NCBI RefSeq assembly: GCF_003850345.1
Contig: NZ_CP027707.1
Location: 4,712,001-4,776,000, forward strand
Length of the DNA: 64,000 bases
Direction: 5' to 3'
From: Pseudomonas chlororaphis subsp. piscium
GTDB lineage: Bacteria > Pseudomonadota > Gammaproteobacteria > Pseudomonadales > Pseudomonadaceae
The notes under the pieces are model-generated. The model was not told where the DNA came from. It did not search any database and saw only the letters and a list, made by a program, of their open reading frames with translations. Numbering within the stretch: position 1 is the first letter of the stretch; the number at the start of each line of letters is the position of its first letter. Of this stretch, positions 6,367-62,922 are shown in pieces. A program made the position numbers and the translations under genes.

Positions 6367-6498
6367 ACCGCCTTTCACCCTGTAATGCCGGCCACGGATC
6401 CGACGAGCCGGCATGTCGCCAGCCATCTGCCACCGCACTTGTTGTCTACGCTCAAATCGACAGCCCGAAAGGAATCCCGTACTCGCCAGGAGGTGCCC

Positions 6499-8718
6499 TT
6501 GAGCAAGACGCCAGATGCCGTTGCCACTGCCCGCCGAAGCAATATGGCCAAAGCCCTGGAACGCTGGAACCGGCAAGCCGTTGCCCGCAGCGAATCGCTG
6601 TCGCGCATCCGCGAACTGGGCCCCGGCGCCGGCGACTCGCCGCAACAGCTGGCCAAGTGGATCGCCCGCGAGAATGCCCGCTCCGTGCTGGTCAGGGCCG
6701 GGCTGGAGCGACGGATCGGCACCTGGGACCCGACCTTCTACGCCCCCAGCGAAGCTGCCCGCCAGGCGGCAAGGCCGGTGGCGCGCCTGGTCAACGCCCC
6801 ACAGCCAGGAACGGTGGTCGAGGGCTTCGCCACTGGTTTCCTGGTGTCCCCCAACCTGTTGCTGACCAACCAGCATGTGTTTCCCAGGGATGTGGACGCG
6901 GTGGACTGCGCCGCCAACTTTCTCTACGAAAGGCTGGAGCGCGGGATAAACGAAGGCACCTACTTCAACCTGCTGCCGGATCAGTTCTACTTCGCCGACG
7001 AGGCGCTGGACTTCTGCCTGGTGGCCATCTCGCCGCAAGGCACCCGCGGCGAAGCCCTGGCGGACTACGGCTGCATCCGCCTGATCGAAGCCACCGGCAA
7101 GACCCTGCGCGGCCGCCCGATGAACATCATCCAGCACCCCGAGGGCGGCCCGCGCCAGTACGCCACCACCCACAACCGCCTGCTGGACATTCTCGACCAG
7201 GGGTTCCTGCACTACGAAACCGACACCGCCGAAGGCGCCTCTGGCTCCCCGGTGTTCAGCGACAACTGGGAGCTGATCGCCCTGCACCACTGCGGCATTC
7301 CGCGGACCGACGAAGCCGGCAACATTCTCAAGACCGACCACAGCATCTGGAACCCCGAAGGGGACGAGGAAAGCACGGTGGACTGGGTGGCCAACGAGGG
7401 CACCCGGGTCAGCAGCATCGTCAGCGCGCTCAAGGCCCTGCAACTGAGCGGCAAGCCGGCCGAGCTGCTGGCCCAGCTCATGGAGCTGACCCCCGACCCG
7501 CTGGCCATGCTCAGCGTCAACGAAACCCTGCCCGCGGCGCCACACCGCCCAGGAGCGCCCGATATGTCGCAGAACATCTTTCATATCTCCGGCCCCACCA
7601 CCATCAACATCGTCAGCCACGCCGCGGACAGCCCGGCCAGCGTCATGCCCATCCTCAACGTCGCGCCTGCCGAGCCGGTGCCTGCCGCGCCGGCTCCGGC
7701 AGCCGCGGCGCTGGAAAAGACCCTGACCTTCGACCTCGACTACGCCGCCCGCAAAGGCTACGACCCGGACTTTCTTGGGGTGCCCGTCCCGCCGCCCGCA
7801 ATCGAGGGCGCGCGGCTGCCCCAGCTCTACCGGGTCGGCGACTACCGCGAACACCTCGCCTCGGCCCGCAACGTACCGCCGGTGCAGCTTGCCGGCCTGG
7901 ATGACGAGGCGCCGCTGGCCCTGCCCTACCACCACTATTCGCTGGTGATGAACAAGGATTACCGCATGCCGATGTGGACCGCCTGCAATGTCGATTACCG
8001 GCCCGAGGTCCGTGGCGATACCCGCGCGCGCAAGAAGTACGGTGGCGAAAGCTGGCGCCTCGACCGCCGGGTGCCGAGCCGCTACCAGCTCACCAACGGC
8101 GATATCTACGGGCCGGCCGGCAACTTCGACCGCGGCCATATCGTGCGCCGCGAAGACAGCTGCTGGGGGATGCCGGGGCTCGAAACCGAGTACGCCAACG
8201 CCGACACCTACCACTGGACCAACTGCACGCCGCAGCACGAGCTGTTCAACCAGGAATCGCCCGACGGTGCCGAATACCGCAATCGCAAAGGGGTCTGGGG
8301 TTACTTCGAAAACGAGCTGGCCGAGCAGATCGAAGCGGGCGGCGGCCAGGCGATCATCTTCGCCGGCCCGGTACTGGACCAGACCTCGTGCGTGGAACAG
8401 GACTTCGGCAAGGGCCCGGTGCGCTACCCGACCCGCTTCTGGAAAATCGTCATAGTGCCCAAGGACGAATCGCGCACCCCGGAACTGCTGGCCTACGGAT
8501 TCCTGTTCGATCAGAGCGAGGTCATCAAGGAGTTCGGCCTCAACGTCAAGGAAGCCGTCCAGGACCTGGCCAACACCTTCCAGAAGCAGAAGGTGCCGCT
8601 CACGGCCATCTGCCTGCTCACGGGGATTTCCCTGACGCCGTCGATCATGGCCGCCGACCAGTACAAGCAGCCTGACCGCCCAGTACCAGGGGTCTGGCGG
8701 CTGAAACCTGACAGGTGA
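6499..8718 (+). CDS. Trypsin-like serine protease fused to DNA/RNA non-specific endonuclease
   Basis: A two-enzyme protein of about 739 residues. The start is set at TTG 6499, preceded by a near-perfect AGGAGG at 6488-6493; the frame stays open upstream. Residues about 95-300 are a trypsin-like domain: catalytic His126 in TNQHVF, Asp171 in LDFCLVAI, Ser248 in EGASGSP. A Pro/Ala-rich linker (about 390-445) leads to a NUC-type (beta-beta-alpha metal) nuclease with His547 in the DRGHIVRRE motif and Asn575/Asn584 in NCTPQHELFNQ. All catalytic residues of both families appear intact. There is no signal peptide, so the protein should be cytoplasmic. The role is not established; by architecture it could be a conflict or defence effector in which proteolysis controls the nuclease. 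Confidence 0.88.
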   Translation: MSKTPDAVATARRSNMAKALERWNRQAVARSESLSRIRELGPGAGDSPQQLAKWIARENARSVLVRAGLERRIGTWDPTFYAPSEAARQAARPVARLVNAPQPGTVVEGFATGFLVSPNLLLTNQHVFPRDVDAVDCAANFLYERLERGINEGTYFNLLPDQFYFADEALDFCLVAISPQGTRGEALADYGCIRLIEATGKTLRGRPMNIIQHPEGGPRQYATTHNRLLDILDQGFLHYETDTAEGASGSPVFSDNWELIALHHCGIPRTDEAGNILKTDHSIWNPEGDEESTVDWVANEGTRVSSIVSALKALQLSGKPAELLAQLMELTPDPLAMLSVNETLPAAPHRPGAPDMSQNIFHISGPTTINIVSHAADSPASVMPILNVAPAEPVPAAPAPAAAALEKTLTFDLDYAARKGYDPDFLGVPVPPPAIEGARLPQLYRVGDYREHLASARNVPPVQLAGLDDEAPLALPYHHYSLVMNKDYRMPMWTACNVDYRPEVRGDTRARKKYGGESWRLDRRVPSRYQLTNGDIYGPAGNFDRGHIVRREDSCWGMPGLETEYANADTYHWTNCTPQHELFNQESPDGAEYRNRKGVWGYFENELAEQIEAGGGQAIIFAGPVLDQTSCVEQDFGKGPVRYPTRFWKIVIVPKDESRTPELLAYGFLFDQSEVIKEFGLNVKEAVQDLANTFQKQKVPLTAICLLTGISLTPSIMAADQYKQPDRPVPGVWRLKPDR

Positions 8719-10487: not shown

Positions 10488-11354
10488 ATGCGCTGCCTAT
10501 CCTCTGCTCTGCCGCTGACCCTGCTGTCGCCCCTCCTGTTGTCGATGAGCATGGCCTTCGCCACCACCGCCGTGGCGAACGACGAGACGCAACTGGTGAC
10601 ATCGATCAACAGCTACCGCAGCCAGGTCCAGCGCTGCGCCGGCCAGGTATCCCAGGAACTGCCGCCGCTGGCCGCCGACCCGCGCCTGGTGTTGCCCGCC
10701 AACAGCATCGGCAACCTGCAGCAGGCCCTGGCCAGCAGCGCCTACCCGATGGTCAATGTGCAGGCCATCAGCCTGTCCGGGCCGCGCGATGCCCAGGCGG
10801 CCATGAAGGCGGTGCGGGAAAGTTTCTGCCAGGTGGTGCTGGACCCGCAGTTCGTCGATATCGGCGTCAGCCGTACCGGCCAGGATTGGCGCATCGTCCT
10901 CGCCCGACCGCTGCTGACCGCGCGCCTCGGCGACTGGCAGGCGGAGGGCCAGAAGCTCCTGGAAAGCCTCAACAGCGCCCGCGCACAGCCGCGCCAGTGC
11001 GGCAACCAGATCTTCGCCGCCGCCACCCCGCTGGCCTGGAACTCCACCCTGGCCAGCGCGGCCCAGGCCCATACCCGGGACATGGCCAACCACAACTTCT
11101 TCGACCACAAGGACCGCGACGGCCGCACCCCCGGCGACCGCGCCGAACTGGCGGGTTATGCCGGCCAGCAGATCGGCGAGAACATCGCCGCCGGCCAGGA
11201 CAGCGTGCGCAAGGTGGTCGATGGCTGGCTGGCCAGCCCCGGCCATTGCGCCAACCTGATGAACCCGCAGTATCGCGAGCTGGGCGCGTCCTATGCGGTC
11301 GATCCGAAAAGCGATGCCGGCATCTACTGGACCGCCATGTTCGGCACGCCTTGA
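10488..11354 (+). CDS. Secreted CAP-domain (SCP/PR-1-like) protein
   Basis: A 288-residue protein with a signal peptide (about residues 1-30, cleavage near AVAND). A poorly conserved N-domain is followed by a CAP domain from about residue 155. Family motifs visible are HTRDMANHNFFDH, IGENIAAG, WLASPGHCANLMNP and GIYWTAMFG, including the two His and the Glu of the CAP cavity. GGGAGACCTCC precedes the ATG at 10488. Bacterial CAP proteins are extracytoplasmic; their activity is usually unknown. It is divergent from the SleB-like hydrolase, with which it may share envelope-related control (inference). Confidence 0.87.
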   Translation: MRCLSSALPLTLLSPLLLSMSMAFATTAVANDETQLVTSINSYRSQVQRCAGQVSQELPPLAADPRLVLPANSIGNLQQALASSAYPMVNVQAISLSGPRDAQAAMKAVRESFCQVVLDPQFVDIGVSRTGQDWRIVLARPLLTARLGDWQAEGQKLLESLNSARAQPRQCGNQIFAAATPLAWNSTLASAAQAHTRDMANHNFFDHKDRDGRTPGDRAELAGYAGQQIGENIAAGQDSVRKVVDGWLASPGHCANLMNPQYRELGASYAVDPKSDAGIYWTAMFGTP

Positions 11355-11748
11355 AGGCCTGACCTGCGTTGCCCAAGGGCGTCGTCATCGGCGCCCCTGC
11401 CCCCTCATCGGCCAACCCCGCGACGCCCCTGCCAGCGAACTAGACTGACTCATCTACCGGCCAGGAATCGCTTCCTCCGGGCGTCCCCGGAACCCGCGCG
11501 CAGCCTCGCCTGCCGTCACGTGTTAGGCGCCCAGCCCCGATGGCTACCCTGATGTTCCTGAACGGTATACACGCACCCCGTCCCACGCTGGAGGCGCCCG
11601 TGCGTCAGCTCCTCAGAGCCCGGCCTGCCCTGTCAGGCCCACTCCTTCGGCACCGCCGGGACATGGCCTCCCCGCGTGCGCCGCGTATCTCCATCCGGCC
11701 ACTGCCGGGCCGTCTGCGGCAGTGCCCCTCACAGCGGAGGACAAGGCT
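11355..11748. other. Intergenic region upstream of the methyltransferase
   Basis: About 390 bp with no ORF that I can support. It presumably carries the methyltransferase promoter, and a ribosome binding site AGCGGAGG lies at 11733-11740. No repeat or terminator hairpin was recognised. Confidence 0.45.
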
Positions 11749-12795
11749 ATGGACGAAGCCAAGCTCAACGATTTCATGGGCAAACTGGTGTCAGACATGG
11801 GCGGCGCGGCGATGCTCGCCAATATGATTCTCGGCGAAGAACTGGGCCTGTACCGGGCCATGGCCGACAGTCGCTTCGTCAGCCCCGAGGCGCTGGCCGC
11901 CAAGACCGGCTGCAACGCGCGACTGCTGCGCGAATGGCTGAGCGCCCATGCCGCGTCCGGCTACATGGAACACCTCGACGGCCAGTTCCGCCTGCCGGAA
12001 GAACAGGCCCTGGCGCTGGCTATCGAGGACTCGCCGGTGTACGTGGCCGGTGGCGCCGTGGTGGTCTCTGCGCTGTTTCACGACAAGGACAAACTGCTGG
12101 CGGCGATGCGCGGCGACGGCGCCCTGGCCTGGGGCGATCACCACCCGTGCATGTTCAGCGGCACCGAGCGTTTCTTCCGCCCGGGCTATCGGGCACACCT
12201 GGTGGCCGAGTGGCTACCGGCGCTGGACGGTGTGGTGGAGAAACTGCAGGCCGGGGCCAAGGTGGCAGACATTGGCTGCGGGCATGGCGCCTCGACGGTG
12301 ATCATGGCCCAGGCCTTTCCCGCTTCGCAGTTCTTCGGCTTCGACTACCACCAGCCTTCCATCGCCACCGCGACACAACGGGCCGAGGAAGCCGGGGTGA
12401 CCGGCCGCGTGCAGTTCTCCCAGGCCAGCGCCAAGACCTACCCCGGCAACGACTACGACCTGATCTGCTTCTTCGACTGCCTGCATGACATGGGCGACCC
12501 GGTGGGCGCCGCGCAACATGCCTTCCAGTCGCTGAAAGACGACGGCAGCGTGCTGCTGGTCGAGCCGTTCGCCAACGATCAACTGGACCAGAACATCACC
12601 CCGGTCGGCCGGCTGTTCTATGCCGCCTCGACCTTTATCTGCACGCCCAACTCGCTGTCCCAGGAAGTCGGCCTCGGGCTCGGTGCCCAGGCCGGCGAAG
12701 CACGCCTGCGCAAGGTCTTCAGCGAAGCCGGCTTCAGCCAGTTCCGCCGGGCCGCAGAAACGCCGTTCAACCTGATTCTCGAGGCACGTAAATAA
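11749..12795 (+). CDS. Class I SAM-dependent methyltransferase with N-terminal winged helix
   Basis: A 348-residue protein. Residues about 20-90 form a winged-helix-like domain (ILGEELGLYRAM, LLREWLSAHAASGYM) as in O-methyltransferase and Rv2258c-type proteins. The SAM fold begins near residue 175 with motif I VADIGCGHGAS. FFGFDYH and DLICFFDCLHDMGDP correspond to motifs II and IV, and SVLLVEPFA to the post-I strand. The ATG at 11749 has AGCGGAGG 8 bp upstream; the longer GTG start at 11722 lacks this support. Substrate unknown. Confidence 0.87.
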   Translation: MDEAKLNDFMGKLVSDMGGAAMLANMILGEELGLYRAMADSRFVSPEALAAKTGCNARLLREWLSAHAASGYMEHLDGQFRLPEEQALALAIEDSPVYVAGGAVVVSALFHDKDKLLAAMRGDGALAWGDHHPCMFSGTERFFRPGYRAHLVAEWLPALDGVVEKLQAGAKVADIGCGHGASTVIMAQAFPASQFFGFDYHQPSIATATQRAEEAGVTGRVQFSQASAKTYPGNDYDLICFFDCLHDMGDPVGAAQHAFQSLKDDGSVLLVEPFANDQLDQNITPVGRLFYAASTFICTPNSLSQEVGLGLGAQAGEARLRKVFSEAGFSQFRRAAETPFNLILEARK

Positions 12796-62847: not shown

Positions 62848-62922
62848 TGGCAGGGGCGGCTGGATTCGAACCAACGCATGGCAGGATCAAAACCTGCTGC
62901 CTTACCGCTTGGCGACGCCCCT
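62848..62922 (-). tRNA. tRNA-Gln (anticodon UUG)
   Basis: On the minus strand the sequence opens AGGGGCGTCGCCAAGCGGTA, continues through the anticodon loop TTTTGAT (UUG), the TPsiC loop GTTCGAATC and closes CGCCCCT-G-CCA. The acceptor stem is seven perfect pairs and CCA is encoded. About 75 nt. Confidence 0.95.

Follow-up and report, generated by a model that had tools for sequence, protein, structure and literature searches.

The window, a 64,000-nucleotide stretch of the Pseudomonas chlororaphis subsp. piscium genome, carries at 6499-8718 on the plus strand an open reading frame for a 739-residue fusion protein with a Trypsin_2 and an Endonuclease_NS domain. Pfam assigns residues 111-262 to Trypsin_2 (E 1.4e-17) and residues 475-689 to Endonuclease_NS (E 5.6e-35), both above cut-off. 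An NCBIfam scan of the 739-residue protein returned a sole match far under cut-off, and PADLOC gave weak matches in the protease region only (RT-Protease_XI and LmuA, E 0.0014-0.0023). The TTG start with an AGGAGG proposed in the initial annotation agrees with the DNA, where AGGAGG lies 5 nt upstream of TTG 6499. A promoter and terminator scan revealed no promoter-like sites and four terminator-like sites, versus 1.8 in shuffled sequences. The features of the gene are as follows.

6488-6493, plus strand: ribosome-binding site of the TTG start, AGGAGG, read from the sequence; the 8-nt match AGGAGGTG lies 3 nt before TTG
6499-8718, plus strand: whole protease–nuclease gene with TTG start (open reading frame, 739 residues; Pfam)
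6499-6693, plus strand: N-terminal helical region, residues 1-65 (AF2 helices at 5-25, 27-40 and 48-65; no Pfam match)
6829-7284, plus strand: Trypsin_2 domain (Pfam); triad kept in 120 of 121 aligned rows
6874-6876, 7009-7011 and 7240-7242, plus strand: triad codons His126, Asp171 and Ser248, within Trypsin_2
7516-7713, plus strand: flexible linker, residues 340-405 (pLDDT below 50 nearly throughout 342-403; conservation poor outside the motif)
7551-7555, plus strand: AGGAG, 8 nt upstream of the in-frame ATG 7564 (sequence)
7564-7566, plus strand: start-like ATG (Met356), a putative internal start for the nuclease half (75 of 121 rows have Met; separate nucleases)
7573-7617, plus strand: conserved interdomain strand motif, residues 359-373 (110 of 121 linkers; AF2 strands of low confidence)
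7921-8565, plus strand: Endonuclease_NS domain (Pfam); His547, Asn575 and Asn584 in 121 of 121 rows
8128-8139, 8221-8223 and 8248-8250, plus strand: nuclease site, DRGH (with His547), Asn575 and Asn584, within Endonuclease_NS

The N-terminal three-helix region is conserved and could serve oligomerisation or act as an adaptor.

The gene had been described as standing alone, and a scan of ten neighbouring frames revealed no partner among those that Pfam matched (MCP, TonB receptor, AraC, SDR, GNAT, cell-wall hydrolase and CAP). The adjoining genes encode SDR and GNAT proteins, and as the gaps to their frames measure only 132 bp and 12 bp, respectively, there is no separate adjacent immunity gene. 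A search of this genome for EAD1 gave no matches, with controls that were equally silent. We considered a recent foreign origin and rejected it: the GC content of the gene (about 0.65-0.68) is similar to that of its surroundings, the sole tRNA of the window lies at 62848-62922, and there is no match among phage records. Pseudomonas sp. NFIX28 (L009) also has the gene, next to the GNAT, cell-wall hydrolase and CAP genes known from the window, while SDR was not matched in the stretch examined. The gene was not matched at 1e-10 in 12 GNAT-adjacent stretches of 3.7-3.8 kb, which were picked from 23 genomes with a GNAT match.

Conservation and distribution of the fusion

A protein search yielded 558 matches at E <= 0.001, the best being a 98% identical protein labelled Pseudomonas chlororaphis, and we aligned the window protein with the best 120 of them. 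Both Pfam domains are present in 119 of these best 120 of 558 matches, so that the combination of Trypsin_2 and Endonuclease_NS, put forward for a search of architecture databases, is not unique. The active sites had been called intact, and His126, Asp171, Ser248, His547, Asn575 and Asn584 are indeed all kept in 120 of the 121 aligned sequences; only P0013, a fragment that lacks the protease part, departs from this. The predicted lack of an export signal also extends to the relatives. When the best 15-residue Kyte-Doolittle mean over the first 60 residues was compared with a threshold of 1.6, only two rows exceeded it (P0020 and P0094), both starting inside the protease region, and no export-like N-terminus was seen. 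Thus, neither signal peptides nor the loss of an active site, named beforehand as refuting observations, occurred among the 121 aligned sequences. Since all catalytic residues are kept in 120 rows, the protease and nuclease activities are probably under selection together.

The distribution of the gene is very patchy. The full gene was found in one of 298 sampled genomes of the genus (E <= 1e-60), in one of 369 of the class (1e-40) and in one of 337 of another class (1e-50). Looser or remoter forms occur more often, in 27 of 398 genomes of the phylum (1e-20) and in 12 of 248 genomes of one alphaproteobacterial family, by inference Rhizobiaceae (1e-60), some of these through the protease half alone. 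Matches were also detected in 115 of 72,556 plasmid records, 28 of them covering at least 80% of the query, whereas none of 50,697 phage records matched and one viral-contig scan revealed no relative.

A conserved motif and a start-like methionine in the linker

The initial annotation described a Pro/Ala linker, but the linker is not solely Pro/Ala and carries a conserved motif. Residues 359-373 are strongly conserved in an otherwise variable linker (F361 in 112, G365 in 119 and T368 in 118 of 121 rows). A motif pattern, which was drawn up after inspecting the alignment, fits 110 of 121 linkers, compared to a mean of 0.15 of 121 shuffled ones. More distant trypsin–Endonuclease_NS fusions carry a related form at the same position, for example VEIPLQITVRL. 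Related linker motifs are also found where the protease is joined to other effectors, namely in Trypsin_2 fusions with a PLD-like domain (PLDc_2) at three loci of one alphaproteobacterial family (L056-L058) and in a Nannocystis gene (L010, 14738-16873) that combines the same kind of protease with Endonuclease I. This points to interchangeable effector domains behind this protease type. The pattern for the second form missed one of 15 fragments and placed three one turn out of register, and we treat both forms as one motif on the basis of an alignment by eye. Judged likewise by eye, six loci (L011, L026, L031, L044, L060 and L098) have no such motif. A motif-sharing partner was sought in the genome of the window with a strict DNA pattern, which matched only the window gene and which a looser motif could escape. 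A second match in Nannocystis was rejected as a partner, as it lies in a 115-residue frame without the remainder of the motif.

An AF2 model based on the 121-row alignment shows two confident domains (mean pLDDT 85.3, pTM 0.52), joined by the flexible linker and with two short low-confidence strands at residues 359-373. The model has no confident contact of the linker with the protease or the nuclease domain, and hence no masking of the nuclease is visible in it. A fold search against the PDB returned the FAM111A protease in the top four rows and EndoG at ranks 12 and 20, amid many autotaxin/NPP entries. In a model of the 384-residue nuclease half, built from 16 rows, the mean pLDDT was 64.1 and the motif region was disordered.

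Five residues before F361, 75 of the 121 rows have a methionine, while every other well-filled column between residues 330 and 410 has at most 5.9% Met. When alignment shifts are taken into account, 80 of the 110 motif-bearing rows have a Met one to seven residues before the motif (68 at exactly five), compared to 438 of 4633 other seven-residue windows. Where this Met is replaced, a small or polar residue usually takes its place, which makes packing an unlikely reason for it. Where it is present, one of A, S, P, T or G follows in 68 of 75 rows; this signal is weak, because it is also seen in 35 of the 46 rows without Met. In P0003, P0004 and P0013 (85-87% or 82% identical, two labelled P. chlororaphis), Arg replaces Met356.

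Separate nucleases begin at the same place. With the nuclease half as query we obtained 97 matching proteins, of which 95 were listed. Among these 95, 15 start at the Met or within one residue of it with the first form of the motif (Leu in P0149), and five start there with the second form. For 11 of these 20 motif-starting nucleases the contig is shorter than 2 kb, and they could represent the ends of fusions in which the gene finder took an inner start; four others lie on contigs of 5-77 kb (P0149, P0162, P0186 and P0190). The clearest case is the separate nuclease of Nannocystis poenicansa, whose frame opens past a stop at 7767-7769 of L010 and has its first start codon, TTG 8013, at the homologous place with AGGAG 8 nt upstream (AGGAG-8-TTG).

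At the DNA level, ATG 7564 has the longest match to a ribosome-binding site after the true start among the 38 possible start codons of its open frame, tied with two other ATGs. As a background, we took the 199 internal ATGs of 31 likely window genes, of which seven follow a 5-nt match and 31 a match of at least 4 nt. An ATG within 16 residues before the motif is present at seven of 22 loci (nine ATGs) and absent from 14, L010 having TTG. Six of the seven ATG-bearing loci have one ATG with a match of at least 4 nt: 5 nt in the window and L009 and 4 nt in L046, L047, L054 and L055, with 3 nt in L057. In the R. etli locus (L046) the spacing is long (11 nt), and five other starts of the frame score equal or higher. 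This DNA test is suggestive only, because it covers a small number of loci, some of them related, and takes its background from a single genome.

Together, these observations suggest that translation probably also starts at ATG 7564 and would give the nuclease half. We infer that the motif forms the N-terminus of a nuclease module that can stand apart, with a docking or propeptide role. On the other hand, there is about an even chance that no internal start exists, with Met356 being a relic of the fusion or a part of the motif and AGGAG occurring by chance. The loss of Met in three close relatives, the lack of an ATG there in most distant fusions, the chance matches of at least 4 nt at 31 of 199 internal ATGs in the window genes and the short contigs of 11 of the 20 motif-starting nucleases all fit such a relic. 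It accounts less well for the enrichment of Met in this single linker column, for its mostly small or polar replacements and for the match of at least 4 nt at six of the seven loci with an ATG there.

Related loci and known systems

In Nannocystis poenicansa, the separate Endonuclease_NS nuclease is followed on one strand (L010, 8013-16873) by trypsin–STAND, EAD1–trypsin and trypsin–Endonuclease I genes. The trypsin–STAND frame has 1328 residues, and the protease genes lie downstream of the nuclease; a trypsin gene upstream of it was considered and rejected, as the upstream frame is DUF4874/DUF4832. On three rhizobial plasmids, the protease and the nuclease are annotated as two adjacent or overlapping genes (L043, 4656-6901; L044, 4860-6982; L042, 4974-7107). 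They may be either true split genes or frameshifted fusions. In L043 the related motif stands at the C-terminal end of the protease gene, and L042 matches L047, which has a single gene over this stretch. The scanned neighbours of fused relatives at L101-L103 are ordinary genes for metabolism, transport and repair. At L099, a 324-residue frame on the minus strand (11114-12085), which Pfam does not match, runs into the beginning of the fusion frame and is a possible partner gene.

The suggestion that the gene represents an uncharacterised system did not hold. Fusions of trypsin and NucA were described in 2020, when Kaur et al. predicted trypsin+NucA conflict systems, fusions included, and proposed a proteolytic deployment of NucA (PMC7159879), and LypC of Caulobacter (2026) is such a fusion. 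By its Pfam domains, the window protein fits System 3 of that paper, which pairs a trypsin-like peptidase with NucA/Endonuclease_NS, sometimes in one chain (PMC7159879). However, System 3 is given there as mostly alphaproteobacterial with operon partners in a subset (PMC7159879), whereas our gene is gammaproteobacterial and stands alone. The EAD1 or STAND partners of this subset are missing beside the window gene but present in the Nannocystis relative, whose gene run agrees with System 3 as described there to include STAND and EAD1 parts (PMC7159879).

LypC belongs to the CARD-NLR-like LypABC system of Caulobacter crescentus. There, lysis was abolished by the S296A exchange but not by H471A/N505A, and the nuclease domain is absent from one of the Caulobacter homologs of LypC (PMC13236601). 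By this description, LypC and the window protein are alike in having an N-terminal trypsin-like peptidase, a flexible linker and a C-terminal NucA-like endonuclease. LypC is ascribed a cytosolic role in cell lysis (PMC13236601), and the window protein is likewise without an export signal. Unlike LypC, which is encoded with lypA (CARD-peptidase-ATPase) and lypB (NLR-like) according to the same source, the window gene adjoins SDR and GNAT genes. In CARD-NLR systems, phospholipases and endonucleases take the place of gasdermins (as cited in PMC13236601).

An analogue with another nuclease fold comes from the phage defence systems Hachiman, AVAST, Lamassu and DRT, for which Tuck et al. showed in 2025 that a pro-nuclease is activated by a trypsin-like protease (PMC12799240). 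There, the nuclease has an MBL fold with gating loops and is always encoded by a separate gene, in contrast to the Endonuclease_NS domain on the same chain in the window protein. The linker motif also resembles BASS in combining a short conserved strand-turn-strand-like motif, a disordered stretch and an effector of the cell-death type, but it lies between two domains, and no other gene of the genome has a matching motif under the strict pattern.

The union of the protease and nuclease domains is thus already known, while the linker motif and the start-like Met are new. The linker motif, the PLD-like and Endonuclease I fusions and the internal start were not mentioned in the accessible portions of the literature searched, outside of which lie subscription papers, supplements and the source data of Kaur et al. 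Specifically, the accessible text of Kaur et al. (PMC7159879) names no linker motif, PLD-like version or internal start, and the consulted parts of the amyloid-motif papers PMC12261475 and PMC8086366 and of PMC8195603 do not mention these features either.

Possible functions of the fusion protein

Our leading interpretation, which we hold tentatively and at slightly less than even probability, is a latent suicide effector with a protease-gated nuclease, whose gene probably also gives the nuclease half. The chain, a protease joined to an EndoG-type nuclease, would be latent in the cytosol until a cue switches the protease on, either via oligomerisation of the N-terminal helices or via a sensor, which we propose to be unlinked because none is encoded nearby. 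The protease would then likely cut the flexible linker near the motif, and the freed nuclease would destroy nucleic acids, leading to cell death or arrest during phage attack or another conflict. An internal start at ATG 7564, if real, would add a nuclease-only protein that carries the motif N-terminally, as the separate nucleases of relatives do; for the cell to tolerate it, this protein would have to be kept inactive until docking or processing. The prediction of Kaur et al. is in line with activation by the protease, and so, by analogy, is the proven case with another nuclease fold. The linker motif, the Met before it, the separate nucleases beginning at this Met and the Nannocystis relative amid trypsin–STAND, EAD1–trypsin and trypsin–Endonuclease I genes argue for a gated effector. 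Against it stand the lack of a sensor or partner gene beside the window gene, of nuclease masking in the AF2 model and of a motif-sharing partner in the genome under the strict pattern, as well as the Arg in three relatives and the 14 of 22 loci without an ATG before the motif. Moreover, the nuclease residues H471 and N505 of LypC were dispensable for lysis while its peptidase serine was essential (PMC13236601).

A more far-reaching version, in which the gene makes two products (the fusion and, from a conserved internal start, the nuclease alone) and the motif is a general connector of trypsin-like proteases to NUC1, PLD-like and Endonuclease I effectors, seems rather unlikely to us. If true, the motif would represent a novel type of adaptor in bacterial cell-death effectors that are triggered by proteases. 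Protease-controlled bacterial effectors are a fast-moving topic, and a question within it is how a single polypeptide can safely carry both a protease and a lethal nuclease. A motif that is common to three effector types and stands at the start of separate nucleases predicts a site of cleavage or docking and a second, nuclease-only protein.

The LypC exchanges and the homolog without a nuclease (PMC13236601) also fit a protein in which the protease is the working part and cleaves other host proteins, with an auxiliary or structural nuclease. We consider this unlikely, since His547, Asn575 and Asn584 are kept in all 121 rows, which would not be required of a merely structural domain. Less probable still is a housekeeping or stress enzyme for the turnover of nucleic acids and proteins without a role in conflict: the ordinary neighbours in the window and at L101-L103 would suit it, but neither its presence in one of 298 genomes of the genus, with relatives in 115 plasmid records, nor the System 3 gene company in Nannocystis would. 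Endonuclease_NS domains are found in exported or injected antibacterial toxins; such a toxin is nevertheless highly improbable here in view of the absence of a signal-like N-terminus and of a separate adjacent immunity gene and the presence of just two Pfam domains.

In a comparison of the window protein with P0002-P0005 and P0013, the proteins labelled P. chlororaphis comprise one type that is 98% identical to it and others near 82-87%. These types diverge at Met356 and at the C-terminus, which may reflect allele replacement or fast evolution.
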